Shown: positions 6,305 to 63,987, counted from the stretch's first letter. The stretch is 64,000 bases of DNA from Chromatiales bacterium (ex Bugula neritina AB1) (GCA_001730015.1 MDLA01000080.1:248001-312000); one strand, 5' to 3'. The notes: generated by a model from the letters alone, not told the origin. Numbers and translations: made by a program.

Positions 6305-6320
6305 GCACAATTTTACAACG

Positions 6321-6371
6321 GCTTCAACGAAGTTGGATCTCGCCGGGCATTTGCCCGGTGCGGGTTGAAGC
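6321..6371 (+). promoter_or_regulatory. Long inverted repeat between the 981-aa gene and the barrel-protein gene
   Basis: The arms GCTTCAAC (6321-6328) and GTTGAAGC (6364-6371) enclose a second stem, CCGGGC-ATTT-GCCCGG (6343-6358). There is no T-tract, so it is not a standard intrinsic terminator. It lies in the leader of the next gene and could stabilise upstream mRNA or attenuate downstream expression. It supports ATG 6414 rather than 6372 as the start. Confidence 0.5.
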
Positions 6372-6413
6372 ATGTCGGCTGGATTGCCCGGACGTTGTAG
6401 ACGTGAATGCAGA

Positions 6414-12488: not shown

Positions 12489-13135
12489 CTGATCAGTTGT
12501 TTAAATCAATGGAAAGTTATTCAATCGCAAGATTCAAAAGAGCTCGCAGTACGACGGAAAGGACGAGGCTGTTCTATCGCAATAGTTGCGTGTTTTTGCT
12601 ATTGGCCTGGCTTGCTGGATGCGCTAGTACTGATGAATTGTTCGTGCAATACGATGTGAATTTTTGCCCGGTTCCTGCACCAGCGGTAGCAGTTCGGGAT
12701 ATAGCATTAGTTGAAGGTCTGGAAGTACCGTTTCTGGCGCGAAAGCTACTCTCATGGGAGCCGGCTGTATATTTTAACGACGACTCTTCCGCCCTTAGCG
12801 CCGCTGCTCAGCAGTCGTTGCAAAATAACATAAATGTTCTTAAAAGTTTTCCGCAATACCTGGTAACGGTACGGGGTTTTACCGATGAGCGCGCTCCCCT
12901 GGATTATAACCAGGAGCTGGGCATCGATCGGGTCCTTTCTGTACGTACGTTTCTAGGTAAAAATGGTATTGGTAGTGATCGGGTTATCGGTGAATCCCTG
13001 GGTGAATCTATTTCGCTTGCAGAGGATTCACCTGTGGCAAGTCCGATAAACCGGCGAGTAGAACTTATGCTACTGGATAGGGACGGTCGGCCGTTCTCAA
13101 GCCAGCGACAGTTGATTATGAGGTCTACTGAATAA
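12476..13135 (+). CDS. OmpA-family peptidoglycan-binding lipoprotein
   Basis: A hydrophobic stretch ends in the lipobox LAWLAGCAS (Cys49 of the longest frame). After it comes an OmpA-like domain: YFNDDSSAL, VTVRGFTDERAPLDYNQELGIDRVLSVRTFL and NRRVELML, with the Asp and Arg positions that bind diaminopimelate in this family. It would anchor to the outer membrane by lipid and grip peptidoglycan. The start overlaps the last 13 bases of the barrel gene and has GAGGA upstream, so translation is probably coupled; ATG 12509 is an alternative. The N-terminus ahead of the hydrophobic core is unusually long for a lipoprotein. The tight coupling suggests that it works with the barrel protein as a cell-wall brace. 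Confidence 0.85.
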   Translation: MAGIADQLFKSMESYSIARFKRARSTTERTRLFYRNSCVFLLLAWLAGCASTDELFVQYDVNFCPVPAPAVAVRDIALVEGLEVPFLARKLLSWEPAVYFNDDSSALSAAAQQSLQNNINVLKSFPQYLVTVRGFTDERAPLDYNQELGIDRVLSVRTFLGKNGIGSDRVIGESLGESISLAEDSPVASPINRRVELMLLDRDGRPFSSQRQLIMRSTE

Positions 13136-13137
13136 AG

Positions 13138-15786
13138 ATGAACAAGATTCGGAGAATCTCTGCGGTAAAGGTTTTGCTTCTGGTAGCGTGTCTGTTGCCG
13201 GGACTGCTGGTAAAAGCTGCACCACCTGCAGGGACCATAATTAAAAATCAGGCAAGTGCTACGTACACCGACAGCAATGGAATTGAACGTGTTGCTACAT
13301 CGAATGTGGTCGAGACCACTATACAGCAAGTTGCCGCAATGCAGCTTGATCGTGATCAAAATAAGCTTGCAGCAGCAGGGCAGCAGGTCTTTTTGAGTCA
13401 TACTGTTACCAATGGCGGCAATGGGCTGGATAATTTTTCTGTATCAGTTAGTAATGATTCTGCCGGCGACGATTTCGATCTCATTGGACTGCAAATCTAC
13501 AATGATGCCAATCAGGATGGGCGGCCCGATACCTATAGTCCGGTAAATTCTTCTCCGGCACTGGATTCGCAAATGAGTTGGCATTTTGTCATAGCTGGAA
13601 CTATACCCGCTTCCATTTCTGAGTTTCAGATCTCCAGACTGACGCTAACCGTGAACAGTCAATTTAATACTGGTGTCGTAGTGACCAATACAAATTCGGT
13701 TAGCGTCGCAGACGGTGCCGTGGTTGAAGTTACAAAGTCTCTGTCCAATACATCCGGGACAAGCCCATCCGATCCGGTTACTGTAACTTTGGGTTATAGA
13801 AATACCGGGTCTGGCGTCGCAACAGATGTCACGTTGATTGACGCCCTGCCAGCTGGTATGCTGTATATAGCCGGATCTGCACGCTGGAACGAAACCGGCG
13901 CCACCGTACTTAGTGATAGCAACCCGGCGGATCCCCAGGGGTCTGTAAACACGGTGAGATACTGCGCATATAATGCAAGCTGCATTGGTCTCGCTGAGGC
14001 AGAATCTGACGCAGATAATGATAGCAGCAACCAGATAACAGCCATACTTTCCTCGGTTGCTCCGGGTGAGGCTGGTCAGATTACTTTTCAGGTACAGATT
14101 GGTAGTGGTCTAAACGCAGGTAATCTTGGCAATACCGCTGAATTTGAATACTTAAGTGGTCCAGTACTTACTAATCGCTATAGCAGTAATTCAGTGACAT
14201 TTCAGGTTCTGCACTCTACAGCAGTGGTGCTAAATGGATCGGCAACTGTCGCTGTGGATAATACGGCTGAACCGGTAATTGTGTCTTCATCTCCGCAGGG
14301 TACTGCTATCTCCTTCGTCAGTTATGTATGGAATACCGGTAATGGAACCGATACCTATGATCTTGTAATAGATTCTGCGAGCTCGACGTTTCCAGCAGGA
14401 TCGCTATTTAGATTGTTGCAGTCTGATGGTGTCACCCCGCTAATTGATTCCAGTGGAAACGGGCTTCCGGATACAGGGCCTTTGGCGGCCGGTACATTTT
14501 GTAAGGTTGTGGTACAAATAATTCCTCCCAGTGATGCACAGGGAGATAATGGCGGGGCCGGTTACTCTGTGACCACTACGGCCACATCGATCAGTGATAG
14601 TAGTGTCAGCAATTCGATTCTGGATCGATTGTTGTCTCTGACTTCCGCCAGCGTAGATATTACCAATGTAGCCAATGTAAATGATATAGAGGCGACAGGA
14701 GCGGGGTCCGGCCCGGAGGCTGTTGCAGTAAGCACTTTTAGTGTTTCGCCAGGGAGCACTCTGACCTTGCCTCTATTCATTAATAACACCGGAGCTACAG
14801 CAACTTCTTTCGATCTGGCCGGCAGCATCTTTGAAGATTATTCAGAAGTAGAATTACCCGAAGGGTGGCAAATCAGTTTCAGGAAGTCCGGGGAGGAGGA
14901 GGAGCTATCGAACACCGGAGTAATACTTCCTGGTGAATTCATGCAGATCGATACATTAATCACTGTGCCTGCCAATACCGCTCCAGGCACCACCAGTTTA
15001 TATTTCAGAGCGTGGTCGCAGGCTACCGGTGCGCTTGATATTAAACACGATGCCATAGAAGTAGCTTCGATCGAGCAATTGTTGCTGGAGTTGAACCAGG
15101 CGGGCCAACTGGATCCAGGGGGTAGCTATGTTTATGATCATTTGCTGACGAACACAGGAAACACGGTCATAAACAGTGTAACGCTTTCCTTGTCTGATAG
15201 TGAGGAAGCGCAGGGTTGGACATCTGCTCTTTTTGAAGACACTGACGCTGATGGAAAGTTGGGTCCGGCTGATCTGGTTATAACTGATCTGGCGACTATA
15301 GCAATTGGTGAAGTGAGACAGTTGTTTCTGAAGGTGTTTGCGCCCGCAGGTGCTGAGCTACAGAGTACAAATACCACTGAACTGCAAGTGTCGTGGAATT
15401 CAGGGAGCAGCCTGGAAATGGTTTCGAATGTAACTACGGTTACTAGCAGTGAAATTAATATTGTTAAAGAACAAGCGCCGGACCTCGGTTGCAACGGCAC
15501 CCTGAATTCTCCCTATAGTGTTTCAGACTTCTCTATAGAGCCGGGTAATAATTGCGTGAGTTACCGATTGACTGCCACAAATGCCGGTCTTGTTACTGTC
15601 TATAATGTTGAAGTGACTGATGCGACACCAGCGTTTACTGCGTACTTTGGTACGGCATTCTGCTCCATTGGATCCTGTACTGTTACGGAGCCGGTGGCAG
15701 GAGGGCAGGGTAATATCAACGCATCACTCGGTTCACTTGAGCCTGGTGGTTCAGTGATTCTTATTTTTAGTGTCCGAGTTGAGTAA
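13138..15786 (+). CDS. Large exported Ig-like (DUF11-type) repeat protein, paralogue 2
   Basis: An 882-residue protein starting 2 bp after the lipoprotein stop. The signal peptide (MNKIRRISAVKVLLLVACLL, cleavage near VKA) is followed by GTIIKNQASATYTDSNG and NGGNGLDNFSV, the same N-terminal module as in the 981- and 2,024-residue neighbours. Internal DUF11 units include YRNTGSGVATDVTLIDALPA. Asp loops of calcium-binding type occur (NDANQDGRPDTY, DTDADGKLGPAD). The C-terminal domain has paired Cys (DLGCNG, NNCVSYRL, FCSIGSC) and ends FSVRVE. Its domain order matches the product at 3359 throughout. It is probably a second structural chain of the same surface assembly. No anchor motif is present. 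Confidence 0.8.
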   Translation: MNKIRRISAVKVLLLVACLLPGLLVKAAPPAGTIIKNQASATYTDSNGIERVATSNVVETTIQQVAAMQLDRDQNKLAAAGQQVFLSHTVTNGGNGLDNFSVSVSNDSAGDDFDLIGLQIYNDANQDGRPDTYSPVNSSPALDSQMSWHFVIAGTIPASISEFQISRLTLTVNSQFNTGVVVTNTNSVSVADGAVVEVTKSLSNTSGTSPSDPVTVTLGYRNTGSGVATDVTLIDALPAGMLYIAGSARWNETGATVLSDSNPADPQGSVNTVRYCAYNASCIGLAEAESDADNDSSNQITAILSSVAPGEAGQITFQVQIGSGLNAGNLGNTAEFEYLSGPVLTNRYSSNSVTFQVLHSTAVVLNGSATVAVDNTAEPVIVSSSPQGTAISFVSYVWNTGNGTDTYDLVIDSASSTFPAGSLFRLLQSDGVTPLIDSSGNGLPDTGPLAAGTFCKVVVQIIPPSDAQGDNGGAGYSVTTTATSISDSSVSNSILDRLLSLTSASVDITNVANVNDIEATGAGSGPEAVAVSTFSVSPGSTLTLPLFINNTGATATSFDLAGSIFEDYSEVELPEGWQISFRKSGEEEELSNTGVILPGEFMQIDTLITVPANTAPGTTSLYFRAWSQATGALDIKHDAIEVASIEQLLLELNQAGQLDPGGSYVYDHLLTNTGNTVINSVTLSLSDSEEAQGWTSALFEDTDADGKLGPADLVITDLATIAIGEVRQLFLKVFAPAGAELQSTNTTELQVSWNSGSSLEMVSNVTTVTSSEINIVKEQAPDLGCNGTLNSPYSVSDFSIEPGNNCVSYRLTATNAGLVTVYNVEVTDATPAFTAYFGTAFCSIGSCTVTEPVAGGQGNINASLGSLEPGGSVILIFSVRVE

Positions 15787-15846
15787 ATGCGAAAGCTTCA
15801 CAGAATAACAGGCGTTCTATAGTTGTCTCCCGATTGCAGTAAAAAA

Positions 15847-18800
15847 ATGCCCGGGTCGACCGCGCGGCGTATCTGGTGTTTGCTTTTAGTGCTGGTTGGT
15901 CTGAGCCCGGCATGCCTGCTGGCAGAAGGCAGTTGGCAGATGGGGTTGTTCGAAGGCCCGACTCATCGACAAGTGATGTACGAGACGTCTACGGGGAGTG
16001 GGCACAACATATTGAAAGTCGATATTTTAACACCCGGTGAAGTGATAAATGCCCATGTTTGCGGCCATACGGAAAGTCATAATATCCGAGTGCAGATATT
16101 TGATCCTGTGGGAGGTAGTGTCTATGATTCTACAGCGCCGGGAAATGTCTCTTGTAGTAGTGATTTTAATACCACATGGGATCCGGCTGTAACAAACCCG
16201 CACCAATATGTGACAACCACGGCCGGTACTTTTACAGTACACTTAACTAATGTGAATAGTACGTACCTATACCGATACGACCTTACTGTAACAAACAGCT
16301 TAAACGACATAATCGATCCGCGAGTTGCGGGAGGACGATTATGGTCGTTGTACTGGTATTTCAATGCCGGCTCATATGCTGCCGTATATTCAACCAGTGC
16401 CGATCTTTACGTTGTGGCTGATGGCGGATTTACAGGTACTTATTTTATTTGGCGCCTCGATCTGACTAATTTTGCCGGTTTTGTTTATTCTTTGAAAGCC
16501 AACGACTTGGGTGTTACCAGCCCTAACGCAGCAGGTGATGTTGTTGCCGGTATCAGTGTTCCCAGAACTAATAACTCAATACAGGAAAAGTTCCCGATTT
16601 ATCTTGGGTTTCCAGCCAAATCGTTTCCAGCGCCGATTGGTGGTATTAACATATCAGGCTTGAGTTTTGTTGATAGCGAAGGTGTGGATTCCGGAATATC
16701 GCCGGGTTCAACCAGCACTATCCAGGATAGTGGTACATTTACTTTCGAGACCAATTTGTCGACGACTGGCGTTTACGAAATTATTATTGATAGCGGCAGT
16801 CCGAATGGTACGGGTCCGGATGGTACTTACGGACAGGGAGATATTTTTTTACGCGGCAATGCATTTCCGGGTGTTAATTCTGTAGAGTGGAATGGTGAAG
16901 ATAACAGCGGAACAATTATACCGGACGGTGCGTATTCTGCGATGTTAAGTGTCAGAACCGGTGAGTTTCATTTTACCGGTTATGATGTGGAAACCAGTGG
17001 TGGCCCGGGTAGTGAAGGCATTAAGATTTACCGTGCGCTAAATAGTGGAGCGGATCTCCCAACAACGTTGTTCTGGGATGACTTTACAGTGTTGAACAGT
17101 AGTAGTGCCAATGCCTTTAATCAGGAGGGCCTGTTTGACGGAAACCATAATTGGGGGACATTTAGCTCCGGTGGTATTGGGAACAATAGTTATATAGATA
17201 CCTATACGTACGGGCTTATTGCTGAGCCGAATCCGATTGGAGTTGCCATAACAGAAAATGATATTCCCATACCCACTGTTGACAAGAGCTTTGTGCCTTC
17301 AACGATCAACACCGGTGGCTCTTCAACTATGCAGATCGAGATTGAATACAATGGTTCTTTACCCTTAAGTGGCGTTCAACTCACTGACATCATGCCACTG
17401 GGCATGACCCTTCAGAGTGATCCCGGTTCCATAATGGTGACTGGCGCTGGTTGCTCGGGCTTTACTTTCAGTGGGTCTACTGTATCAGGTGGTAATGAGC
17501 TTTCAGTAGTCGGTGGGAATATCGCTGCGAACAGTACCTGTATTATTTCTGCTGATGTAGTTGCGTCGCTACCCGGTGGATTGGTCAATACCACTTCGGG
17601 CGTGAGTAGTAATGAACTCGCAACGGGTGTTGTCAGTAACGGCGCGACACTGAATGTGGTGCCGAATACACCGGGGCCGGCTTTTTCGTGTAACGGTGAT
17701 TTCTACGAATTGGAAACAACCGGTTCAAGCACTCGTTTGTACTCCATTATAAGAGACTCAAATGTCTATACAAGGCAGGAATTTTCATCCGCAAGTTATA
17801 GTGCCTCTGCTGGTTATACCTATACCGCACTAGCTTATAGTCCGGTCGATAATTACCTGTATGCTATTGTTAATCAATCGGATGAAATTGGTGGTAATCC
17901 ATTATCCGGTTCTGTCTTGCGGATTGATAGCACGGGGCAGATTTTTAATCTGGGGGTGCCCGAGCGCGGCCCGAATACTATGGCGATGCCAGTGGTTTCT
18001 GATCGATATGTCGGGGGTACAATCAGTGAGAATGGTCGATATATCGTTGTCACTGATCTGTCAGCCACTTCTAATACGGGCGGCTCGATACCATTTGTGG
18101 AACGGGGGCTGATTCTCGATATTGATTTGTCTGGTTCGACACCACAGGTGCTGTACAACCGCAGGCACGGCAGAGATGTTGGAGACATCGTCGCACACCC
18201 CGATTCAACTTATTATAGCCATAACCCGGTTGAAGGGCTTATCTCGATCGATAGCACTACCGGTAGTGTCACAACTATCGGAGGTGGTGTGACGGATTCA
18301 TTGAGTGGACTGGTTGCTGATTCCTGGGGATCAATCTATGCGCAAAGCACAAGTGGAAAATTCCTGCAGATTGATGCAACGACCGGTGCAGGTACGGTTC
18401 TTAGCCCGCTCGCTTCAAATGCCAGTGCCGATTTAGCATCGTGTGCTTTTGGTCTCGCTGTAAGGAAAACCACAGACGTAACGGAAGTGGTTGCAGGTAA
18501 TAACGTCACTTATACTATCTCGGTAGCTAATGAAAGCGACAGCGTTGCATTGTTTTCGCTTTCAGATGTACTTGGCGACAATCGACGATTTGTGGCTGGA
18601 TCATTGGTGAACCCTTTTGGCGGTAGTTTAAATGCCTATTCCGGCACAGACACGTTGGGTATAACAGGCGCTACACTAGCCGCGAACAGCAAAGCGGATC
18701 TGCTTGTTGAAGTATATTATCCGCCAGACTATCCCCACGGTGTTAGTTCGAATCTGGCGCAGCTTAACAGTCCTGCATTCGGGTTGCTGAATTCCGATGA

Positions 18801-20463
18801 TCCTTCATCGGTCAGTTTTCCGGACAGTACCGCTATTGATGTGTTAGAGAATCCCTCAATTGGTATATCTAAATCAGCTTCTGTTGATGGTAACGACATT
18901 ACCTATGAGTTTGTGATAGAAAATTTTGGCAATACCGATATAACCAATATTAGTTTAACCGATAATCTAGACACGGTTTTTGGTCCGGGCAACTATGTCC
19001 TGACCGTCGCCCCGTTGTTTGGAGCCGATCCCGGCACGCTGACATTGCATACAGGTTTTAACGGGACAGCAGCGAATGCCGTGTTGCTGGATGCTGCATC
19101 CGGAGGCACATTATCTATCGGCGCCAGGGCCGAAATTCGCTTTGCTGTGAGAGTGACGACGATAACTGATCGTGGTGCTGGAATTGGCGTTTTCAGTAAT
19201 CAGGTTGAGCTTTTCGGAGAGGATCCGAATGGTGCTGTCGTGAGTGATCTGTCAATTGTCGATTCAGACCCTGACCCGGACCATAACGGCAAACCTGTCG
19301 AGCAGGCGGCAACTATTCTAACCCTTGTGCAGACCTTGCAGGTTGAAGGAATAGTATTTGAAGACAATGGCGCAAATGGAGGGATTGTTCATGATGGGGC
19401 CCGAAACGGGGGGGAGGCTTTGTTGGGTGGGATCGTTGTTGAGGCCCGGGATGGGTCAAGTCTGATTTCCAGTGTGGCAACAGCGAGTGACGGCACTTAT
19501 TCACTGTCGCTGCCAGCGAGCTATGGGAATATTCCAGTCCAGGTAGTTGCTGCGGACGGCAACGGTTACCTGGCTATTTCAGAGTATTATCGGGAAGATC
19601 CGGGTAACACCGGCCCGGTGGCGGATGGTACAGTTACCTTTACGCCGCAATTGAATTTTATCGGTGCTTACAAAATAGATTTCGGTCGAATTAAAACCCC
19701 GCTGTGGCAGCCGGACAGCATCGCAGAAAAAGAACCGGGTGGGGCAGTTTTGCACCAGCACCAATATAAAGCCACCAGTAGTGGTCAGTTAACTTTTGCG
19801 ATTGAGCAGGAGTCGAGCGTACCCTCGAACACTGGATGGCAGGCTGATTTGTATCGGGACTCAGACTGCAGCGGTGACCTCGACGCGAGTGAGCAACTGT
19901 GGTCAACACCTGTTGCCGTAAGTGTAGATGCCGAGTCGCTGGTTTGTGTGTTGAGTAAAGTATTTATACCGTCAGATGCCAGTGGCGGTGATAATTTTCG
20001 TTATGATATTACCGCCACTTTAACGCTGGATGACCCGGCGGGCACAACACATGAGGTAGTGAGTGAATTGATCGTGACAGATCAAACCTCTGTAATAGCG
20101 GCGGGGGAAGGAGTACTGACCCTGTCGAAAACGGTGCAGAATCTTTCAAGTGCCGGTGCCGTAACTTCTCGAAACAGTGCAATGCCCGGGGACGTTCTTC
20201 GGTACGTGATCACCTTTAACAATATCGGCAGCGGTGTGATTTCCAACTTGATGATCTCGGACAGTACACCAGCCTACACAGTTTTGGCGCAGCCGGTGAG
20301 TTGCCCGGTGAGTCTGCCACAGAGTTTGGCGACGTGTCAGGTGATTGCGCCAATGGCTGGCGCTAACATGGCGGGGTACAGTGGTGAGGTGCAATGGCTA
20401 TTTACCGGTGAAATGGCGGCCGGTGCCACCGGTGCTGTTGACTACAACTTGCAAGTTGACTGA
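15847..20463 (+). CDS. Giant exported repeat protein with propeller-like middle and DUF11/Cna_B-like units
   Basis: ATG 15847 gives 1,538 residues with a Sec signal (ARRIWCLLLVLVGLSPACLL); a TTG at 15823 would add eight residues. The N-terminal ~450 residues (SWQMGLFEGPTHRQVMYETS onward) are unlike the neighbours and hold a tripartite fold with VEWNGEDNSG and PDGAY, resembling a FlgD-type Ig loop. Residues about 613-869 (YTALAYSPVDNYLYAI, GLISIDSTTGSVTTIGG) look like a DUF6923-type propeller. DUF11 units follow (NNVTYTISVANES, NDITYEFVIENFGN), then a Cna_B-like unit near 1,165-1,240 and the C-terminal pair shared with paralogues 1 and 2. It ends DYNLQVD. Last gene of the locus. Possibly the tip or ligand-binding chain; this is inference. 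Confidence 0.8.
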   Translation: MPGSTARRIWCLLLVLVGLSPACLLAEGSWQMGLFEGPTHRQVMYETSTGSGHNILKVDILTPGEVINAHVCGHTESHNIRVQIFDPVGGSVYDSTAPGNVSCSSDFNTTWDPAVTNPHQYVTTTAGTFTVHLTNVNSTYLYRYDLTVTNSLNDIIDPRVAGGRLWSLYWYFNAGSYAAVYSTSADLYVVADGGFTGTYFIWRLDLTNFAGFVYSLKANDLGVTSPNAAGDVVAGISVPRTNNSIQEKFPIYLGFPAKSFPAPIGGINISGLSFVDSEGVDSGISPGSTSTIQDSGTFTFETNLSTTGVYEIIIDSGSPNGTGPDGTYGQGDIFLRGNAFPGVNSVEWNGEDNSGTIIPDGAYSAMLSVRTGEFHFTGYDVETSGGPGSEGIKIYRALNSGADLPTTLFWDDFTVLNSSSANAFNQEGLFDGNHNWGTFSSGGIGNNSYIDTYTYGLIAEPNPIGVAITENDIPIPTVDKSFVPSTINTGGSSTMQIEIEYNGSLPLSGVQLTDIMPLGMTLQSDPGSIMVTGAGCSGFTFSGSTVSGGNELSVVGGNIAANSTCIISADVVASLPGGLVNTTSGVSSNELATGVVSNGATLNVVPNTPGPAFSCNGDFYELETTGSSTRLYSIIRDSNVYTRQEFSSASYSASAGYTYTALAYSPVDNYLYAIVNQSDEIGGNPLSGSVLRIDSTGQIFNLGVPERGPNTMAMPVVSDRYVGGTISENGRYIVVTDLSATSNTGGSIPFVERGLILDIDLSGSTPQVLYNRRHGRDVGDIVAHPDSTYYSHNPVEGLISIDSTTGSVTTIGGGVTDSLSGLVADSWGSIYAQSTSGKFLQIDATTGAGTVLSPLASNASADLASCAFGLAVRKTTDVTEVVAGNNVTYTISVANESDSVALFSLSDVLGDNRRFVAGSLVNPFGGSLNAYSGTDTLGITGATLAANSKADLLVEVYYPPDYPHGVSSNLAQLNSPAFGLLNSDDPSSVSFPDSTAIDVLENPSIGISKSASVDGNDITYEFVIENFGNTDITNISLTDNLDTVFGPGNYVLTVAPLFGADPGTLTLHTGFNGTAANAVLLDAASGGTLSIGARAEIRFAVRVTTITDRGAGIGVFSNQVELFGEDPNGAVVSDLSIVDSDPDPDHNGKPVEQAATILTLVQTLQVEGIVFEDNGANGGIVHDGARNGGEALLGGIVVEARDGSSLISSVATASDGTYSLSLPASYGNIPVQVVAADGNGYLAISEYYREDPGNTGPVADGTVTFTPQLNFIGAYKIDFGRIKTPLWQPDSIAEKEPGGAVLHQHQYKATSSGQLTFAIEQESSVPSNTGWQADLYRDSDCSGDLDASEQLWSTPVAVSVDAESLVCVLSKVFIPSDASGGDNFRYDITATLTLDDPAGTTHEVVSELIVTDQTSVIAAGEGVLTLSKTVQNLSSAGAVTSRNSAMPGDVLRYVITFNNIGSGVISNLMISDSTPAYTVLAQPVSCPVSLPQSLATCQVIAPMAGANMAGYSGEVQWLFTGEMAAGATGAVDYNLQVD

Positions 20464-29358: not shown

Positions 29359-30966
29359 GTGAAATTTTCCGTTGAGGCTGCTTTTTCAGGCCTTACTTTA
29401 CCGTTCAGGTTCCGATACGTGCGAACGTGGCTTTTATTTTTATTTACGTCGCTTGCTATGAGTATGCAGGGTTATTCTGCGGATTGTCTGGTAAGCGGGA
29501 ATTCTCTAGCAGATGCAAAAGCGATTTATAATGCAAGTTGCAACGAACCCCGTGAAGACTGTGATCCCGTCAGCGGTCTCTGGTACTGCTCAAGCGGTCC
29601 GGTGACTGCTGCATCAGTTGCGCTGGCAAAAGCCTCTACGTCTGCGAATGATTCCACAGACAATAATACCAACCCGGGCACTTCGGCACCTTCAAGTCCG
29701 GCTCTGTCGGAAACAGTGGATAGCGGCGAGCGCAATGTTCCGGCTGGTAACTCACCAGCACAAATAACCGGAACAGGTGCCGGTGAATGCGTGGATTCCA
29801 GTGGAGATGGCTGGGGCTGGGATGGCACGGCGTCGTGTCGCGTAAGCGGAGCCACGAACTTGCCTGCAGCTGGGAGTAATCAGGGTAACGCGGTGAGAGA
29901 TGAAAGTAGAAATACGGGGGGCGTAGCTGCCAACACCGGAACGTGTATCGACAGCGATAACGATGGCTGGGGCTGGGATGGTACAGCATCGTGTCGCGTG
30001 AGCCGGGTAACCAACCTACCCGCATCTGAGGGTAATCAGGGTAACGAGGTGAGGGACGAAAGTAGAAATACAGGGAGCGCAGCAGCCACGGTTGGGCCGT
30101 GCATTGATAGCGACTATGATGGCTGGGGCTGGGATGGCGTAAAGTCCTGTCGAATTACAACGGTTGTCAATAATAATGATACTGGCCAAAATGGCGCTGG
30201 CCAGAGTGCTGGCGTTGGGAGTGAGAGCGCAACTGGCAGTGCGGTGACTGTCACCCGATATCGACCATCTGATATTACTGATCTGGTTCTGGTGACAGGT
30301 CAGTCGAACGCGCTTGGCGCAAATACCAGTTATGACCCGGTGCTGGATGCACCGCACCGCAGTGTTTTTGCGTTTACCAATACCGGGTGGGAACGCGCTG
30401 ATCTGCATCAGGTATGGGATCTGAACTGGCACCCGAGAAATGATCCCGACACCGATCCCTCGAACAACTTTGCGTTGCATTTCGGCAAGCGCCTCACGCG
30501 TATAGATGATCGCCGTGTGGTGGGATTTATTCTGGTTACGGCGCCAGGTGCGGCGATATCAAACTGGTCATACAACGGTGAGTTTTATCGGAAAATTCGA
30601 GCGAAAGTGCTTGATGCGATAAATCAGCTGCCGCACAAGTCGTCACTGGATGGTGTGCTTTGGCATCAGGGTGAGACGGATGCACGTGATACCGCGGCCT
30701 ACTCTGTGAGCCTCAACGCGGTCATAGAAAATCTGCGTAGCGAGAACTGGTTTTCAGCGGACAAACCGTTTATCTGCGGTGAAGTCGCGCTGCCAGGTGG
30801 CGTAAATAACCGATTGAATGCACTTAATCATGATGGCAGCCCTAATACAGCGTGTGTAAGAGGCACTGATCTGCCCACCAAAACTGATGAGGCGCATTTT
30901 ACTGCTGAGGCATTGCGTGCACTTGGTAAGCGATACGCTGATCAGTACCGAAGTATGACTCGATGA
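29359..30966 (+). CDS. Exported SGNH/CE6-like carbohydrate esterase with three DGWGW modules
   Basis: A 535-residue protein starting at GTG with GAGG upstream. A long leader with a hydrophobic core (TWLLFLFTSLAMSMQGYSA) precedes a Cys-containing segment and a Ser/Thr-rich linker. Three Cys-bracketed modules of the form C-DS-DGWGWDG-SCR start at Cys144, Cys196 and Cys248, with exactly 52-residue spacing. The catalytic domain from about residue 300 has TGQSNALG (nucleophile Ser316), WHQGETDAR and DEAH (Asp510, His513), the order of the sialate-O-acetylesterase / CE6 family. It should remove acetyl groups from a polysaccharide outside the cytoplasm. The modules are shared with the nearby glycoside hydrolase, which suggests a common substrate. 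Confidence 0.85.
   Translation: MKFSVEAAFSGLTLPFRFRYVRTWLLFLFTSLAMSMQGYSADCLVSGNSLADAKAIYNASCNEPREDCDPVSGLWYCSSGPVTAASVALAKASTSANDSTDNNTNPGTSAPSSPALSETVDSGERNVPAGNSPAQITGTGAGECVDSSGDGWGWDGTASCRVSGATNLPAAGSNQGNAVRDESRNTGGVAANTGTCIDSDNDGWGWDGTASCRVSRVTNLPASEGNQGNEVRDESRNTGSAAATVGPCIDSDYDGWGWDGVKSCRITTVVNNNDTGQNGAGQSAGVGSESATGSAVTVTRYRPSDITDLVLVTGQSNALGANTSYDPVLDAPHRSVFAFTNTGWERADLHQVWDLNWHPRNDPDTDPSNNFALHFGKRLTRIDDRRVVGFILVTAPGAAISNWSYNGEFYRKIRAKVLDAINQLPHKSSLDGVLWHQGETDARDTAAYSVSLNAVIENLRSENWFSADKPFICGEVALPGGVNNRLNALNHDGSPNTACVRGTDLPTKTDEAHFTAEALRALGKRYADQYRSMTR
29788..30099 (+). repeat. Two tandem 156-bp units coding for DGWGW module plus linker
   Basis: Each unit encodes 52 residues: the Cys-DGWGW module and a linker with NQGN-VRDESRNTG. 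The units are 29788-29943 and 29944-30099; a third module without the linker follows at 30100. High DNA identity shows a recent in-frame duplication. Confidence 0.85.
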
Positions 30967-32086: not shown

Positions 32087-32169
32087 ACTCTGGTTTCCTG
32101 GCGCACTGAAACCCGCCTTGATCCTATACATCTGTTGTGCCTTGCTATAGAGTCCGAAAGGTATTCTGC

Positions 32170-33219
32170 ATGACGCGAAAAAATACAATGAAAGCAAGTG
32201 ATATCTTTGGTACTGAGGTGCCGATTATCCAGTCGCCAATGGCTGGCGTACAAGATCACCAGCTTGCGGTTGCGGTTTCCCGCGGCGGTGGGTTGGGTTC
32301 GATTCCCTGTGCCATGCTGGATACAACCCGGATAGAGAAAGAACTGGCCGCCTTTCGTGCACAAGCTGTCGGACCGGTGAATGTTAATTTTTTCTGTCAT
32401 CAAGCACCGATTGCTGATGAGCAGCGCGAAAACCGGTGGCGGGATACGCTGCAACCTTATTTTAAAGAATATTCAATAGATGCCATACCACCTGCTGCTG
32501 AAAGAAAACCGTTTGATCTCGACGCGGCAGATGTTATCGAGTCGTTCCAGCCCGAAATAGTCAGCTTCCATTTCGGCCTGCCGTCTGCCGAATTATTGGC
32601 TCGGGTTAAAGGCTGGGGCGCCAGTGTTATGTCAACTGCTACCACTATAGAAGAGGCGTGCTGGCTTGAGGCACACGGTGCAGATATTATAATTGCCCAG
32701 GGGTACGAGGCTGGTGGTCACAGAGGCATGTTTCTATCCAGCGATCTTACCACTCAGGCAGGTACTTTGGCTCTCTTGCCCCAAGTGGTTCGAAGTGTCA
32801 GCGTGCCTGTTGTCGCCGCCGGTGGTATAGCCGATAGTCAGGGCGTCATGGCGGCATTGTCGATGGGGGCGATAGCGGTACAAATGGGAACAGCTTATCT
32901 TCTTTGTGATGAAGCGCTGACAAGTACCGTGCATCGTGCGGCCCTAAAAAGTGAAAATTCAGTGCATACGGCAATCACCAATATTTTCTCAGGGCGCCCT
33001 GCGCGTAGCATCGTGAATCGCGTGATACGTGAGATCGGGCCGATCAGTGATCTGGCACCGCAATTCCCGCTGGCGGCGACAGCAATTTCGGCCTTGCGCA
33101 ATGCCGCGGAGCAGGGAGAATCAGGAGACTTCAGCCCGCTGTGGAGCGGTCAGAATACCAGTGGTTGCGCTGAAGTTTCCGCCAGCCAGCTCACCCGGGA
33201 ACTGGCGAATCGAGACTAG
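32170..33219 (+). CDS. Nitronate monooxygenase-like FMN oxidoreductase
   Basis: ATG 32170 is preferred (AAAGG nine bases upstream) over a GTG at 32137. The product is a 349-residue TIM-barrel flavoprotein. Family markers: IQSPMAGVQDHQLAVAVSRGGGLGSIP at the N-terminus, NVNFFCHQAP, AQGYEAGGHRGMF in the middle, and VPVVAAGGIADSQGVMAALSMGAIAVQMGT for the FMN phosphate. These define the NAD(P)H-dependent flavin oxidoreductase / nitronate monooxygenase group. It would oxidise nitronates or related toxic nitro compounds, or act as a quinone reductase; the two cannot be told apart here. Cytoplasmic. Neighbours give no pathway clue. Confidence 0.88.
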   Translation: MTRKNTMKASDIFGTEVPIIQSPMAGVQDHQLAVAVSRGGGLGSIPCAMLDTTRIEKELAAFRAQAVGPVNVNFFCHQAPIADEQRENRWRDTLQPYFKEYSIDAIPPAAERKPFDLDAADVIESFQPEIVSFHFGLPSAELLARVKGWGASVMSTATTIEEACWLEAHGADIIIAQGYEAGGHRGMFLSSDLTTQAGTLALLPQVVRSVSVPVVAAGGIADSQGVMAALSMGAIAVQMGTAYLLCDEALTSTVHRAALKSENSVHTAITNIFSGRPARSIVNRVIREIGPISDLAPQFPLAATAISALRNAAEQGESGDFSPLWSGQNTSGCAEVSASQLTRELANRD

Positions 33220-33290: not shown

Positions 33291-34082
33291 ATGAACCAGG
33301 CCGAAATCGGGGCGTTAAAGTTAATGACAGATGCACAGTTTGCGGAAACTGTTGAACTGGACTTGTCAGAGGAGTTGTCGAAACTCGACCTGCCCACTTT
33401 GAAGCAAATGCAGCAGGCGGGTGAAGAAATGGCTGAGTGCCTGCGGGTTCTTGACAGAGTCGGTCGAACCTTGATTCATGAAGTCATCGATGGTGAGACG
33501 TCACTGGAGTTTTATACTCATTATCCGAAATCGGACGATGTCCGCGACGAAGCAAACAACTCGCAATATTATTATCATCATCACCGGGATGATCCGCAAG
33601 AGCACGGCCACTTTCATCTTTATGTTCGATCGGGTGGGATTCCCCAGGGGGTTGTGGCTTCAAATAAATACAACCGTAAGAAATGGCCACCGAAAAGTGA
33701 TCAGTTCGCTCAGCTGTTTGTTATATCACTGGATCCTCAAGGACTGCCGTGCCAGATCTTTACCAACAACCGTTGGGTAGCTCATGAGACATTTTTTGAA
33801 GCACCTCAGCTGATTCGTCTTCTGGATGGGTTCAAAATAGATCACGCTTGGCCGTCCTGGCCACTTAATCGCTGGATTTCAGCATTCCCGATGGTTTTCC
33901 GGCCACAAATTGAAGCCGCCATATTTGCTCGCGATAGAGTTATCAAAGACTTTGCACAGAAGAACCCTGTGGGGCATGTGCTTGAGGACGAAAGACTGGA
34001 AGTTACGTCGATAGTGAAAATTAATTTTGAGCAGCAGATTTCACAAATTAATCAGATGATTTCAACTGGGGGTTTGTGCTAA
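33291..34082 (+). CDS. Conserved hypothetical protein, His-rich
   Basis: A 263-residue soluble protein with no signal peptide or membrane segment. I do not assign it a function. A notable block near residues 84-112 reads FYTHYPKSDDVRDEANNSQ, then YYYHHHRDDPQEHGHFHLYVR, a dense His/Tyr/Asp cluster that could bind metal. A second conserved-looking stretch is VISLDPQGLPCQIFTNNRWV. The C-terminal part is helical. It may belong to the DUF6969 group, but I am unsure. The codon use and ribosome-binding site (AGAGA) look like a real gene. It is the last of the rightward genes before a hairpin and the leftward peroxidase gene. Confidence 0.65.
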   Translation: MNQAEIGALKLMTDAQFAETVELDLSEELSKLDLPTLKQMQQAGEEMAECLRVLDRVGRTLIHEVIDGETSLEFYTHYPKSDDVRDEANNSQYYYHHHRDDPQEHGHFHLYVRSGGIPQGVVASNKYNRKKWPPKSDQFAQLFVISLDPQGLPCQIFTNNRWVAHETFFEAPQLIRLLDGFKIDHAWPSWPLNRWISAFPMVFRPQIEAAIFARDRVIKDFAQKNPVGHVLEDERLEVTSIVKINFEQQISQINQMISTGGLC

Positions 34083-34335: not shown

Positions 34336-36438
34336 TTATGCAAAATGTGCGCTGTTATAGAAAACGTTATCCTGCATATCGAGAGATGAATTTCTTTCGA
34401 TGATGTCAGCAAGCGTGGTTTGCTGAAGTTGCTGGAGTTCTGCACCCGAGTAGGTGTTTTCATACCAGAATCGATCAGCGTTGCGAATATTTTCGTACTG
34501 ATCTGTATTGATCGATGTGAACAGCTCACCCATCATTGAATCACCATGCTGGTCTTCTGCAAGACCGCCGACCCACAGATCAACCTGATCTACATTGTCG
34601 TATACGGAAGCCAGTTTTTCACCTACACCATCGGCGAAAATCGGGTCGTCAAATGAGGTGATTCTGTGAAGGCCAAGTGCTTCGCGTGTATCATTGTAGC
34701 TTGCGAGCTCATGATCACGACCACGCTGGATGTTAAGCGCTGCGAGATCCTGCCCGCCGGCACCTGGAGGCCCGAACAGCATATTTCGAACTTCATCAAC
34801 TATCTGATGGTCGAGAGCCTGACCCGTAGTGCTGGCCTGTGAAGCTAGAATTCCTTCAATACCGTTCTCTTTGATAATTTCGGGATTCATGAATGCATCT
34901 GCCAGGCTGGTTCCAGCTACTTCGCCGGAAATCATTGAATGGCCGAATCGGTAGGCAGCGGTTGAAAACTCGTTGCTTAGTGTTGCGTCAGCAGTGGGGT
35001 CGTAGCCCGCATACTCTGATATTGCGTCTCTCCCGAGCAATGCAGGAAGATACTCGTTATAGGTAATTGACTGCATTTGTGCGATGTTTTTACTACGAGC
35101 TGCCTCATAGATCTGGCTGTCAGACCATTGTGGATTTGCGTTGCGGTATTCGTCGGCAAGTCGATTGTGCTCGCGTGCGAACAGTGTGTGCATAGAAGTA
35201 AGGCCGGGTTGCTCATTAACACGGTCATCGCCAGCTTTGAAGAATCCTTTTTCGTCAAGAGGTAATAGATTGCCATCACTCATTTTCAATCTGCCGCCAT
35301 CAAATGTTCTGAGATCTGCAGCGGTTTCCGCATCTGATCCGTAAACCTGGGATCCATCTATATAAGCACTGACCAGGTTGGTCTGTTGCTTATTGCCGTT
35401 GGAGTCTACTGTTGCAGTCGATCGGGTAAAGGGTATTTCCTGCGTCCCGGTTGCAAACGGATCAAGCGCCCTGTCACCTGTGGGAACAGAAATCGGTGCT
35501 TTTTCACCTGGCTCCCCTGCCCGTGTGTCGGGCTTGGCAGTGGCTGTTATATCGTGATCGTTAAACTGACCCCATTGCCACAGGATATTACTGGTGCCAT
35601 TCGGGTCGAGCTTGGGATCACCGTTTTCAGCGAAAACAGCATTGCTGATATCCCGAGCGTTGGGTAAAGCTTTACCCGTTTCTGTGTCGGGTGCTCGAGT
35701 TTTATCCTGAGGTACCAGTCTTGTGAATTCGGTGTTTGCGGCACCAGAGTTCTTTTCTAGCAGGTTATTGCCGGTACCGTCGAGAGAACGTACTGTATAG
35801 CCCTGACCACCACCGTTTACAGAGCCGCCGCCCTGACCGCCGCCGTGTACAGAGCCGCCGCCCTGACCGCCGCCGTGTACAGAGCCGCCGCCTTGACCGC
35901 CGCCGTTTACAGAGCCGCCGCCTTGTCCACCACCGTTTACAGAGCCGCCGCCGTGGCCGTTGGTTTGGGTAGGTGAGTAGCCGTTACCGGTATTAGAGGA
36001 GCCTTGTGTCTGAACGGTATGAGTATTGGTGGTCGTAGTCGAGGTATTGCTGTTGACAGAGCCTTGGTTGCTAGTTGTCTTTGTGTTCTGGTTAGAGTTC
36101 GTATAAGACACATTGCCTTGAGCATTGTTTCCACTGTTCAGGTTAGTGAAATTGAACTGGAATGGCATCGTGTTGTTGGAGCTTTGCTGAGTGCTGGTTC
36201 CACCACACTGAGGTTTTGGTTGGTTCCCGCAATTGCCAGGGATAGGGCGACATGTTGGTGTTGTAGTCTGGCAGGTGGGTTGTTGGCGCGGTTTTGCTGA
36301 ACAGTTGCCACGAAAAGCGTTAACGGACGGCTGACAGTTTCGGTTGGCATTGCGCAGGGCTGAAACCAGCGAACTTATGTTGTTGCCACCGTTGCAGCCA
36401 ACCTGAGTAAAATACTCTGGATTTATATTGAAATTCAT
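34336..36438 (-). CDS. Animal-type haem peroxidase with Cys-rich and Gly-repeat N-terminus
   Basis: A 700-residue member of the peroxidase-cyclooxygenase superfamily. The active site is complete: WQWGQFNDHDI (Gln291, Asp294, distal His295), DDRVNEQPGL (Arg406, Glu409), REHNRLADEY, YRFGHSM (proximal His500) and NIQRGRDH. Asp294 and Glu409 correspond to the residues that form haem ester bonds in myeloperoxidase. Residues 1-80 hold seven Cys, 85-160 are Asn/Thr/Ser-rich, and 163-212 are five copies of GGGSV(N/H)GGGQ. There is no Sec signal, so export, if any, uses another route. GGAG precedes the ATG. It is divergent from the CPPKG protein gene. Roles known for the family are halide or phenol oxidation and protein crosslinking; here a matrix-crosslinking role is inferred. 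Confidence 0.9.
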   Translation of the reverse strand: MNFNINPEYFTQVGCNGGNNISSLVSALRNANRNCQPSVNAFRGNCSAKPRQQPTCQTTTPTCRPIPGNCGNQPKPQCGGTSTQQSSNNTMPFQFNFTNLNSGNNAQGNVSYTNSNQNTKTTSNQGSVNSNTSTTTTNTHTVQTQGSSNTGNGYSPTQTNGHGGGSVNGGGQGGGSVNGGGQGGGSVHGGGQGGGSVHGGGQGGGSVNGGGQGYTVRSLDGTGNNLLEKNSGAANTEFTRLVPQDKTRAPDTETGKALPNARDISNAVFAENGDPKLDPNGTSNILWQWGQFNDHDITATAKPDTRAGEPGEKAPISVPTGDRALDPFATGTQEIPFTRSTATVDSNGNKQQTNLVSAYIDGSQVYGSDAETAADLRTFDGGRLKMSDGNLLPLDEKGFFKAGDDRVNEQPGLTSMHTLFAREHNRLADEYRNANPQWSDSQIYEAARSKNIAQMQSITYNEYLPALLGRDAISEYAGYDPTADATLSNEFSTAAYRFGHSMISGEVAGTSLADAFMNPEIIKENGIEGILASQASTTGQALDHQIVDEVRNMLFGPPGAGGQDLAALNIQRGRDHELASYNDTREALGLHRITSFDDPIFADGVGEKLASVYDNVDQVDLWVGGLAEDQHGDSMMGELFTSINTDQYENIRNADRFWYENTYSGAELQQLQQTTLADIIERNSSLDMQDNVFYNSAHFA
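35803..35952 (-). repeat. Five 30-bp repeats encoding GGGSV(N/H)GGGQ
   Basis: The repeats are in frame in the peroxidase gene, between the polar N-terminal region and the catalytic domain. Copies differ mainly at the Asn/His codon. They form a flexible Gly linker and are prone to slippage. Confidence 0.9.
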
Positions 36439-37023
36439 TTTTGCTCCGTGGGCATTTGGAGCAGAATGCGGATTTTACGGCTTATTATCTATTGCGTAAT
36501 CGCGAATTCGTTTCCGATGCCCGAGTGTTGTTAGTAAAAAATGTAGTGTTGGTGATGTCTCTTTATTAAGTGTGTCTGAGCATTTGCCGGACCGGTAGTA
36601 AACTTAACAGCTGTACTAAACGATTAATTATAGGTAATGGTTTTTCCAGTTCGTTACAGCTTGTACTACTGTCGCTGGAAGAACTGTATGGTAACAGGTT
36701 GAGGTGTGAGCTACTTTGAAGCACTGCTCAGAAGATAGTGAATTTCTAGCATACGGTTTTTTGGGCATTCGCGCCATTTATAAGTTTAAGTTGTAGCTTT
36801 AGCATGGGTGAAGATTAATTTAAAATCGAATCGTGTTTTGTTGGCAGACTCATTATTCTTGGATTGTTGTCTGCTCACCTGTCATCGTATATTTCTAATG
36901 AGCGCTTTGGAGTAGTGGTGTGAGTGACCACGATAATTGAGGTTAAGTTATTCACTTTAAATGATGGTGTACCAAGGTTTGTAGGATCCTGCCTTAAATC
37001 CTCATAGTGATTATTGTAACGAT

Positions 37024-37087
37024 GGCCATGAAGGCATCAAGGAGCTTTCCTCGCAGGCTCGGAATTCCTCCTTGCCCCTTCATAGCC
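37024..37087 (+). repeat. Imperfect inverted repeat with ~20-bp arms
   Basis: The left arm 37024-37044 (GGCCATGAAGG...CAAGGAG) pairs with the right arm 37068-37087 (CTCCTTG...CCTTCATAGCC) with a small internal bulge. The 23-bp loop is GC-mixed. There is no T-tract. It may be a regulatory RNA stem or a remnant of a small inverted-repeat element. Confidence 0.45.
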
Positions 37088-37474
37088 ACCTCGTTTTTGG
37101 TTCTCTATGACGACCGAAGACACAATTTTGAATTCAATGGCGCGGTGCCAATTTTCCGCTTGAATTTCAAGTGAGAAGTATTTGAGGGTTTAAAAAATTC
37201 CTTAAAAATCAAATCTCGCTTTTTCACATTAATCAACGGTTACAAAGCAACTGCCACTTCATAAATTGAAAATAGCTCTTTGTCAACGACTTAAATCAAG
37301 CGCCTTCAATAAAATGGATCAGAAGCGATCTGTAGGCCCCTCAATTATTTTACTCGTGCTCAATGGGCTTGTGCGGTATGTAGCGTCACGCAATCAACCG
37401 GGTATTTAAAAAACGCTCTAATTTTGTGCGCCAGCTTGCACTAGTTTTCAAGAGAATAGTGCACAATCCCGGCA

Positions 37475-37556
37475 CGGATGTAATTCCGATCAGACCAGTA
37501 TCAGGTCGGGCAAAGGCACTCGTTAGAGCTACCGCAACAGATTAAATAAGTCGCGG
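37475..37556 (+). ncRNA. Candidate structured leader upstream of the CPPKG gene
   Basis: Successive short stems can be drawn: CGGA/TCCG (37475-37488), GACC/GGTC (37493-37507), CTC/GAG (37519-37528) and CCGC/GCGG (37532-37556), separated by short unpaired stretches including GGGCAAAGGC. The GC-richer block contrasts with the AT-rich surroundings and ends 64 bp before the start codon. It does not match a riboswitch class I can name. Covariation would be needed to call it an RNA. Confidence 0.3.
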
Positions 37557-37620
37557 CTCATCCTTGGTCTCCCTGTATCTGGAAACATTTTGACAATGTC
37601 TTAACTGACAGGGGTAAGGT

Positions 37621-38580
37621 ATGGGTAAATTTAGTACGCCGTTTGCAATTTTTGAGACAGCCGTTCACCGTAGTGGTGCCAGTACTGGCACAACTGCAAA
37701 ATCGACGAAAACAGAGAGTTCGAGCGCTTCAAAATCTGGTTTTAAAACCAGTGGGAACCGAAACAAGGGTTGCCCACCAAAGGCTAGTCCTCCTAAAGGG
37801 TGTCCTCCAAAGGGCTGCCCGCCAAAGGGATGTCCTCCTAAAGGTTGCCCACCAAAGGGATGTCCTCCTAAAGGTTGCCCGCCAAAGGGATGTCCTCCTA
37901 AAGGTTGCCCGCCAAAGGGATGTCCTCCTAAAGGTTGCCCACCCCAAGGTAATGGTGTCGGATTTGGGTTCGGAACTAGTTTCGGTGGCGGTAGATCAGG
38001 CTGTGGCAATGGCGGCGGTTTATCTGGTGTTGGCCAGCTGATTCAGCAGTTGCTTGGTAGTCTGGGTGGTACCGGTGGAGCTGGTGGAACTGGCGGTTCA
38101 GGTGGTTGTGGTTCTTCGAGTGGTGGTGGAAGCAGTAACAGCGATATTACACAGTTACTACAATTGTTGATCAGCATACTGCAGAGTATGAGTAATACGA
38201 ATGGATCAAACTCCGGATCTGGATCGAACTCAAGCAATGGATCAGGATCTAACTTTGGGTCAGGTTCTAGCAATGGATCATGTTCAAACTTTGGCTCTGG
38301 TTCTAACTTTGGATCAGGTTCAAGCTTCGGTTCTGGTTTTGGATCAGGTTCAAGTATTGGTACAGGAACCGGATTTGGAAATAACTCCAGCATTGGTGCG
38401 GGATTCGGATTTGCAACTGGTTCTGGATTTGGTGTCGGTTTCGGATTTGGTACCGGCAGTGGATTTAATTCGGGATCAGTAGGACATGGCAATGGGTACA
38501 GCAGCACTGGCAATGGTGGTGGAAGTTCCAGTGGTGGTGGTAATCAAAGTGTTAACCGCACTTGTGGTGGAGGCCACTAG
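37621..38580 (+). CDS. CPPKG-pentapeptide and Gly/Ser/Phe-rich low-complexity protein
   Basis: A 319-residue protein with no signal peptide and no recognisable domain. Residues 1-50 are Ser/Thr/Lys-rich. Residues 51-110 are twelve pentads of the form CPPKG (nine exact, plus CPPKA, SPPKG and CPPQG). Then comes a Gly-rich segment, a short hydrophobic helix-like stretch near 170-190 (ITQLLQLLISILQSM), and a long GSGSNFGSGS / GFGFGTGSGF tail. Thirteen or more Cys could crosslink; Pro-Pro-Lys pentads favour an extended helix; FG/GSF repeats resemble silk- or glue-like chains. An intrinsic terminator follows, so it is monocistronic. A structural or adhesive role is inferred, perhaps with the divergent peroxidase. 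Metal binding is an alternative. Confidence 0.75.
   Translation: MGKFSTPFAIFETAVHRSGASTGTTAKSTKTESSSASKSGFKTSGNRNKGCPPKASPPKGCPPKGCPPKGCPPKGCPPKGCPPKGCPPKGCPPKGCPPKGCPPKGCPPQGNGVGFGFGTSFGGGRSGCGNGGGLSGVGQLIQQLLGSLGGTGGAGGTGGSGGCGSSSGGGSSNSDITQLLQLLISILQSMSNTNGSNSGSGSNSSNGSGSNFGSGSSNGSCSNFGSGSNFGSGSSFGSGFGSGSSIGTGTGFGNNSSIGAGFGFATGSGFGVGFGFGTGSGFNSGSVGHGNGYSSTGNGGGSSSGGGNQSVNRTCGGGH
37771..37950 (+). repeat. 15-bp coding repeats (twelve CPPKG-type pentads)
   Basis: From 37801 the repeats alternate between TGTCCTCCTAAAGGT and TGCCCGCCAAAGGGA-like versions, giving a higher-order 30-bp period. The near-identity of the 30-bp units shows expansion by unequal recombination or slippage. They are fully in frame, so copy number can vary without breaking the gene. 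Confidence 0.9.
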
Positions 38581-61253: not shown

Positions 61254-62399
61254 TCAGTTGCTCAGCGGCGCTATTTGCGCGCGCCGATCAACCGCCCATT
61301 TATATTGCTTCGGCCACAGGTCGAATTCGGTGTCGGCATTCAAGGTTCGTGCTGCGTGCAATGGCCAGAAAGGGTTATGCATAATTTCACGCCCCAGAGC
61401 GACAAAGTCGGCCTGGCCGGAGCTTGCAATCTCTTCAGCTTGCTGCGGATCAATGATTACCCCGACCGCCATAGATTTGAGCTTGGTTTCTTTACTGATC
61501 CGTTCAGCATAGGGAACCTGAAAGCCAGGCTTTCGCGCAGAGCTTTTTGTCAAAGGGTTACCTGCATCGTCAAGACGAAAGCGTGGTGCCCCACTAACAC
61601 CGCCTGAAGAGCAATCGACAACGTCGATTCCGTTTTCAGCCAGCGCGTTGGCGAGTGTCACCGAGTCGTCCATCGTCCAGCCGCCTTCAATACCGTCTAC
61701 AGCTGATATACGAAAAAATAATGGCAAATCTTCACCGACTGCCGCCCGTACTGCGCGAGAGACTTCAAGCGGGAAGCGCATACGTGCTTCTATATTGCCG
61801 CCGTACTCATCGCTGCGCTGATTGGAAATTGGCGATAGAAAACTGTGCAGCAGGTAGCCATGAGCGCCGTGCAGTTCTATTGCCTTAAAACCGGCGTTTA
61901 TAGATCGCTTTGCTGCAGCAACAAAGGTTTCGGTCAATGCGCGGATTTCATCAACGCTCAGCTCGTGCGGAGTAGGGAAGTCTTCACCGACAGCAAGAGC
62001 ACTCGGGCCGACCACGGGCCAGGCGTCCGGATCATCTGCTGTCAGCGGCTTGCCGCCCAGAAACGGCGGCGAAGTGGATGCTTTTCTGCCAGCGTGTGCG
62101 AGTTGTATGCCGGGTACACAGCCCATTTCATCGATAAAAGCGGTAATGGGTTTTAACGCTTCCACCTGCTCGTCGTTCCAGATTCCGAGACACGCTGGTG
62201 TTATTCGACCGATTGCTTCAACGGCGGTTGCCTCGGCAAAAACCAGACCCGCCTTGCCACGAGCGAAGGTGCTTAAGTGGGCAAAATGCCAGGGCTGTGC
62301 GACGCCTTGCCTGGCGGAATACATGCACAGAGGTGAAACCACCACTCGATTCGGAAAAGTGACACCGCGCACGGTAACAGGGGTGAACAGGGCAGACAT
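61254..62399 (-). CDS. Old yellow enzyme family ene-reductase (YqjM-like)
   Basis: A 381-residue FMN enzyme that reduces activated C=C bonds with NAD(P)H. The N-terminus has VVVSPLCMYSARQGVAQPWH with Cys25, the redox-tuning cysteine of the thermophilic-like/YqjM class. Substrate His residues lie in IELHGAHGYLLHSFLSP, with flavin contacts in IQLAHAGRKAS and RSDEYGG. The C-terminal VGVIIDPQQAEEIASSGQADFVALGREIMHNP binds the FMN phosphate. It lies on the same strand as the iron alcohol dehydrogenase upstream, about 100 bp apart; the two could act in one pathway. The substrate is unknown. Confidence 0.93.
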   Translation of the reverse strand: MSALFTPVTVRGVTFPNRVVVSPLCMYSARQGVAQPWHFAHLSTFARGKAGLVFAEATAVEAIGRITPACLGIWNDEQVEALKPITAFIDEMGCVPGIQLAHAGRKASTSPPFLGGKPLTADDPDAWPVVGPSALAVGEDFPTPHELSVDEIRALTETFVAAAKRSINAGFKAIELHGAHGYLLHSFLSPISNQRSDEYGGNIEARMRFPLEVSRAVRAAVGEDLPLFFRISAVDGIEGGWTMDDSVTLANALAENGIDVVDCSSGGVSGAPRFRLDDAGNPLTKSSARKPGFQVPYAERISKETKLKSMAVGVIIDPQQAEEIASSGQADFVALGREIMHNPFWPLHAARTLNADTEFDLWPKQYKWAVDRRAQIAPLSN

Positions 62400-63806: not shown

Positions 63807-63987
63807 GGTAATTCCCTCAGACAAATGCTGGATTTTACGCGAATACGAGAGCCGTTGCCTATCTGAATAGCAGCAGGCATTGCCAGAGAGAATGGTTGGG
63901 CGACTGAGCCCGCAACGCGGCAACGCCCGATGCAGACCGGTGTAGAATTTATCGGGCTAAAACGTTTTCTCCTACAGAGGGCCTATC

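Follow-up and report, generated by a model that had tools for sequence, protein, structure and literature searches.

A haem peroxidase without a Sec signal and a protein built on Cys-Pro-Pro-Lys-Gly (CPPKG) repeats are encoded by neighbouring genes in a 64,000-nucleotide stretch of DNA, hereafter the window, from the marine gammaproteobacterium Chromatiales bacterium (ex Bugula neritina AB1), where it forms part of contig C80 of a 7.44 Mb genome. Our best reading, which we hold tentatively, is that the pair constitutes one lineage-specific module in which the peroxidase would oxidatively cure a polythiol scaffold. New here are a clade of signal-less peroxidases, the confinement of the enzyme's cysteines to an extension where its gene lies beside the CPPKG gene, and the finding that type III secretion is not a shared export route for the pair. 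An intact animal-type peroxidase opposite a CPPKG-repeat protein had been proposed in a preliminary description of the window, and both open reading frames (ORFs) are present, with the following elements.

34336-36438, minus strand: haem peroxidase gene, 700 aa, with a full-length PF03098 match; in the AlphaFold profile of predicted local distance difference test (pLDDT) values, a small, weakly predicted N-terminal module (residues 1-58), a disordered Cys/Gly/Asn-rich linker (59-212) and an intact catalytic domain (216-693)
35791-36438, minus strand: coding part of the peroxidase N-terminal extension, in place of a Sec signal
36439-37620: intergenic region of 1182 bp, compared by MAFFT with that of the related genome G013
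37621-38580, plus strand: CPPKG-repeat protein gene, 319 aa, isoelectric point 9.6
37771-37950, plus strand: 12 tandem pentads (CPPKA, SPPKG, nine of CPPKG, then CPPQG)
38023-38205, plus strand: conserved core of the CPPKG protein, a helix (residues 135-148), a Gly-rich linker with one Cys and a second helix (residues 173-195)
38206-38577, plus strand: Gly/Ser/Phe low-complexity tail of the CPPKG protein (GSNFGSG, GFGFG), with pLDDT < 50

The peroxidase matches PF03098 over the whole profile (positions 1-530 of 530; E 2.2e-148, 495.6 bits against a curated cut-off of 25), and its nearest solved structures by sequence are 8s6c, 6erc and myeloperoxidase; a search of PHROGs gave no match for it. 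Residues Gln291, Asp294, His295, Arg406, Glu409, His500 and Asn582 are invariant in an alignment of 24 sequences. Following background knowledge and PMC5787809, we take these to be the distal Gln, His and Arg, the haem-ester acids Asp294 and Glu409, and the proximal His with its Asn partner. The catalytic site is intact and the enzyme active-looking. G013, an uncultured Granulosicoccaceae metagenome-assembled genome, is the closest relative of the window genome in our search, and its ortholog is 86% identical to the window enzyme over the peroxidase domain, with dN 0.087 and dS saturated.

A Sec-like hydrophobic N-terminus can be read from a candidate start at 78 of the 79 other loci for related bacterial peroxidases (the remaining locus being unresolved), with a 10-residue hydrophobic maximum of at least 1.72 in all 78, a crude and permissive measure that involves no trained predictor. 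The same maximum is 0.87 in the window peroxidase, 1.16 in its G013 ortholog and 0.54 in a paralog on contig C108, and no hydrophobic stretch is found from any possible start of the window gene. The window enzyme thus lacks, at 0.87, the Sec-type feature of its secreted PF03098 relatives; its membership in the family holds nonetheless, because a secretion signal is typical of the family rather than defining. The three signal-less enzymes form one clade with support of 1.0 that excludes the Sec-type enzymes of the family, and for this reason the signal was probably lost once. The CPPKG protein has no Sec signal either, its gene having an in-frame TAA two codons 5′ of the ATG in both genomes. 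The earlier statement that neither protein of the pair has a Sec signal therefore holds from every possible start.

The N-terminal 216 residues of the peroxidase contain seven Cys and five GGGSVxGGGQ units, which bears out the Cys-rich, Gly-repeat N-terminus first described. All cysteines of the enzyme (7 of 7 in the window, 8 of 8 in G013) lie in this extension and none in the domain. Comparison with the Sec-type relatives shows that in this enzyme, as predicted from its reading frame, the ancestral signal has given way to an N-terminal extension that carries the Cys and sits on a long, flexible linker. The second signal-less peroxidase of the window genome, on contig C108 (L038:10958-12721, minus strand), is 63% identical and has a short, basic, Cys-free N-terminus starting MRNFIWTYESAVTG; it contains no Cys and has no CPPKG neighbour. 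That cysteines occur in the extension solely in the two enzymes beside CPPKG, the unlinked paralog having none, is counted in favour of a curing module. A tether formed by the enzyme's own low-complexity region, as had been suggested, is plausible in view of the N-terminal module, the disordered linker and the placement of every Cys in the extension.

Counted in the 319-aa translation, the CPPKG protein carries the 12 CPPKG-type pentads and the silk-like Gly/Ser/Phe tail attributed to it; nine of the 12 pentads are exact and 11 begin with Cys. A Ser/Ala-rich N-terminus precedes the pentads, which are followed by a Gly-rich stretch, the conserved core and the GSNFGSG/GFGFG tail, the core common to the window and G013 aligning as GQLIQQLLG...GGCGS...DIxQxLQxLISxLQSMS. 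AlphaFold predicts Gly-rich amphipathic helices at residues 135-148 and 173-195, the latter with pLDDT up to 94, and disorder in the remainder. Searches of Pfam, NCBIfam and PHROGs returned no family above cut-off for the protein, and a plasmid search for CPPKG returned no match. In pairwise comparison, the exact CPPKG units differ at codon positions 1/2/3 by 0/0/107 in the window and by 0/0/1360 and 0/0/73 in the two G013 pieces. The CPPKG peptide is conserved while its DNA varies, in both genomes. Because the exact units vary solely at the third codon position, the repeat is not a product of chance and the gene is real, and these counts show the predicted protein to be under purifying selection. 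In G013 the gene is split across two contig ends and has at least 41 CPPKG units, with more than 40 Cys in the repeat block.

The high Cys density of the repeat block (11 in the window, more than 40 in G013) would suit a metal-binding, metallothionein-like protein whose pairing with a haem enzyme is secondary. We consider this improbable, as the Cys recur at every fifth residue, whereas metallothioneins typically show CxC/CxxC spacing, and a Pfam scan of most main ORFs of the window revealed no metal-transport neighbours. The same periodicity brings to mind CefA, a ribosomally synthesised and post-translationally modified peptide (RiPP) with Cys at every fifth residue, whose family model NF038108 weakly matches the repeat. 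A CefA-type RiPP precursor is nevertheless the least probable identity of the CPPKG protein, and we rejected it: the score of 20.8 bits falls under the cut-off of 30 and the match is explained by periodicity alone, neither a radical SAM nor any other RiPP maturase was recognised among the scanned ORFs, and the protein is 319 aa long with a long conserved non-repeat core and a tail.

The composition of the CPPKG protein (15 Cys, 11 of them inside the repeat block, 17 Lys and a single Tyr) fits thiol or Lys rather than Tyr chemistry, as had been anticipated. In the mechanism that we propose, the protein would self-associate by way of its helices and its tail rich in Gly and Phe, giving a scaffold dense in thiols, an assembly that would begin in the cytoplasm, and the peroxidase would be recruited to the scaffold through its Cys/Gly-rich extension. 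Supplied with H2O2 and either a halide or thiocyanate, the enzyme would generate a hypohalous-type oxidant (HOX), which may oxidise neighbouring Cys to sulfenyl halides and then to disulfides, or to Cys-Lys sulfenamides, hardening the material. Three analogies may be set beside this mechanism. A family-6 relative oxidises iodide and thiocyanate fast (PMC5787809), and LPO and TPO reportedly promote the formation of disulfides in thiolated polymers (Liegeois et al. 2024, cited in PMC13267771). Cys-rich repeat proteins can be required for a bacterial outer layer, as CdeC and CdeM are for the C. difficile exosporium (PMC6101409). A fuller version of the proposal is a dedicated bacterial curing system, with a scaffold-binding extension replacing Sec export, HOX-driven Cys-Cys or Cys-Lys bonds and exit of both proteins by an undescribed route that needs no signal peptide; this we regard as distinctly unlikely.

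Among 48 family genomes, the CPPKG gene occurs in two, the window genome and G013, with the peroxidase beside it in both and at the same locus. Separation of the two genes in relatives, which the preliminary description had named as counting against its proposal, was checked for, and the pair is together in both CPPKG-bearing genomes. The exact two-unit CPPKG pattern is found in one of 369 sampled genomes of the class, the window's own, and in none of the 368 others (G013 lies outside this sample), and none of the other 79 peroxidase loci has a convincing Cys-periodic or Gly-rich neighbour. Apparent CPP repeats in the family genome G016 proved to be an antisense reading of an EDTPA-repeat gene. 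The pair belongs to a lineage-specific block with two other members.

32137-33219, plus strand: nitronate monooxygenase (NMO) family protein
33291-34082, plus strand: DUF6969 protein

The orthologous site was fetched from 12 congener loci, of which 11 were informative, and the NMO-DUF6969-peroxidase-CPPKG block is present at none of the 11; the site holds sulfatase, SASA/DUF2817 or DUF11/Fur genes. A squalene-synthase-like gene adjoining the block is found in 13 of 13 congeners, and gene content between it and Fur differs across the genus, the stretch between DUF11/Fur and the squalene-synthase-like gene being variable because these genes adjoin directly in several congeners. The DUF6969 protein of the block is 73% identical to that of G013, and homologs in other congeners are just 34–40% identical; it is a divergent second copy, another copy lying on contig C157 of the same genome. 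This comparison of genomes shows the two predicted genes to have been gained or kept together in one sub-lineage.

Several observations weigh against a curing module. Shared by two genomes that are mutually the closest in our search, the co-occurrence of the pair, real as it is, counts as one evolutionary event and lends modest support, and it sits within otherwise conserved local synteny. The paralog on C108 shows that peroxidases of this clade also occur without a CPPKG neighbour. The two genes are divergently oriented, as described, but their starts are 1182 bp apart, and conservation of the intervening DNA with G013 is limited to the ends adjoining each start codon; with so much mostly unconserved sequence between them, divergent orientation is in itself no sign of a common promoter. 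An upstream motif common to the two genes, one of ten comparisons, has P values of 0.04 in the window and 0.12 in G013. The most likely alternative, possible though somewhat doubtful in our judgement, is that a young block (NMO, DUF6969, peroxidase and CPPKG) has brought the two genes side by side without functional linkage or direct interaction, the CPPKG protein being structural or adhesive and the peroxidase serving in peroxide detoxification or producing antimicrobial hypohalites. It would accommodate the long, unconserved intergenic region and the same-clade paralog without CPPKG, together with the confinement of the block to just two closely related genomes and the variable gene content from Fur to the squalene-synthase-like gene across the genus. 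It is harder to reconcile with the retention of both proteins through large changes in repeat number and linker length, and with the extension Cys found solely in enzymes beside CPPKG.

Similar sequence, CGCAAyAGAT..AATAAGyCG, lies 5′ of both genes, at 37533-37553 on the plus strand and at about 36478-36496 on the minus strand, with TCGGGCA about 20 bases further upstream, a statistically marginal resemblance. We left this motif as a weak link between the genes on account of its marginal P. Hairpins sequestering the Shine-Dalgarno sequence in both leaders were set aside, having beaten shuffles in just one of four cases, and an Rfam search gave no match.

Further points against oxidative curing by the pair concern location and chemistry: no secretion genes were recognised among the scanned window ORFs, a reducing cytoplasm would oppose stable disulfides, and one test found no rise in mucin disulfides with MPO (PMC13267771). 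HrcV of the window genome scores 844 bits, which is above cut-off; of 57 related genomes, just one other, G026, has an intact HrcV above cut-off, and G033 passes with joined pieces. G013, 98% complete, gave no match to HrcV or FlhA, so an injectisome does not accompany the pair in both genomes; because G013 keeps the pair without either protein, type III export is not the shared route, and we dropped it as such. That both proteins leave through a type III injectisome as harpin-like substrates is very improbable. Such a role would agree with the HrcV and split YscC-like secretin set that the window genome encodes, and with the Gly-rich amphipathic helices and Ser/Ala-rich N-terminus of the CPPKG protein; the persistence of the pair in G013 speaks against it, as does the abundance of Cys in the repeats, harpins being typically Cys-free. 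The HrcV gene lies on contig C123 (L064:1402-3489), and contig C88 (L055:12601-15521) encodes in a row a secretin, a TPR protein and a separate YscC N-domain protein, resembling a split rhizobial-type type III secretin. A candidate export tag (FETAV / YESATVTG / YESAVTG) shared by the N-termini of the paralog peroxidase and of CPPKG was marginal (P 0.017-0.074); a strong profile match was discounted as circular, since that sequence was itself in the profile.

Given that neither protein has a Sec signal, that type III export is not shared and that no secretion gene was recognised nearby, an extracellular location of the pair finds no positive support. The extracellular coat or glue first suggested is accordingly unsupported: the enzyme's relatives have the signal that both proteins lack, and type III secretion would not explain both genomes. 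The earlier idea of an oxidatively hardened material is partly supported: pairing, tether and thiol chemistry are plausible, and curing and secretion stay hypothetical. The same observations on signals and secretion genes would suit an intracellular redox module with no surface role, whether a cytoplasmic peroxidase draws on the CPPKG protein as its reductant or thiol buffer or that protein gathers into a condensate inside the cell; the Gly/Phe-rich and Asn/Gln-rich low-complexity regions suit condensates. We think this unlikely, since the Lys-Pro-Pro spacing and silk-like tail suggest a material over a redox carrier. Counted against it too is that, to our knowledge, enzymes of this superfamily occur outside the cell or in vesicles and are not known to take protein thiols as direct two-electron reductants.

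Elsewhere in the window, very large DUF11/SdrD-like proteins (981, 2038, 882 and 1546 aa) and an OmpA-family protein are encoded at 3359-20463, adjoining the Fur gene. A SASA-family esterase is encoded at 29359-30966; its relatives at L159:6325-7977 and L170:3614-5134 have N-terminal CxDPDGDGWGWNGxxC-type repeats within a Ser/Asn/Gly-rich region. At 61254-62399 and 62502-63923 on the minus strand, the products of two adjacent genes match phage families that have no assigned function, phrog_5517 (E 1.6e-80) and phrog_6731 (E 4.8e-18).

If oxidative curing of a polythiol scaffold proves true, the pair would be a bacterial, single-locus analogue of the peroxidase-hardened matrices of animals, acting on a polythiol polymer that is simple and genetically encoded, and could serve in adhesives and in studies of the origin of such materials. 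Curing aside, this is a clear case of a normally exported enzyme family in which the export signal has been lost and a low-complexity extension bearing Cys acquired, in a lineage where the neighbouring gene encodes a Cys-repeat protein.

Several known systems resemble parts of the pair. Keratin-associated and small proline-rich proteins, which occur in crosslinked materials, combine Cys and Pro, in some cases with Lys, in short tandem repeats; being eukaryotic, they offer an analogy only to the CPPKG protein. CefA of NF038108 has Cys at every fifth residue, as does CPPKG, but the CPPKG match is below cut-off and no maturase was recognised in its vicinity. The lactoperoxidase-like and peroxinectin-like enzymes of the peroxidase-cyclooxygenase superfamily (PF03098; PDB 8s6c and 6erc) share the full-length catalytic domain and catalytic residues with the window enzyme, which differs in having no Sec signal and in its 216-residue Cys/Gly-rich N-terminal extension. 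C. difficile CdeC/CdeM and B. subtilis CotY/CotZ are, like the CPPKG protein, lineage-specific with Cys-bearing repeats, a likeness by description only; such Cys-rich morphogenetic coat proteins are thought to build a disulfide-linked layer (PMC6101409), whereas the host here is Gram-negative with no known spore. Peroxidasin and other animal matrix-crosslinking peroxidases have superfamily and chemistry in common with the window enzyme, and peroxidasin reinforces collagen IV via HOBr-driven sulfilimine bonds (PMC5377774). The window enzyme is without the Ig and LRR domains of peroxidasin, and in its proposed system Cys/Lys repeats would stand in for collagen IV.

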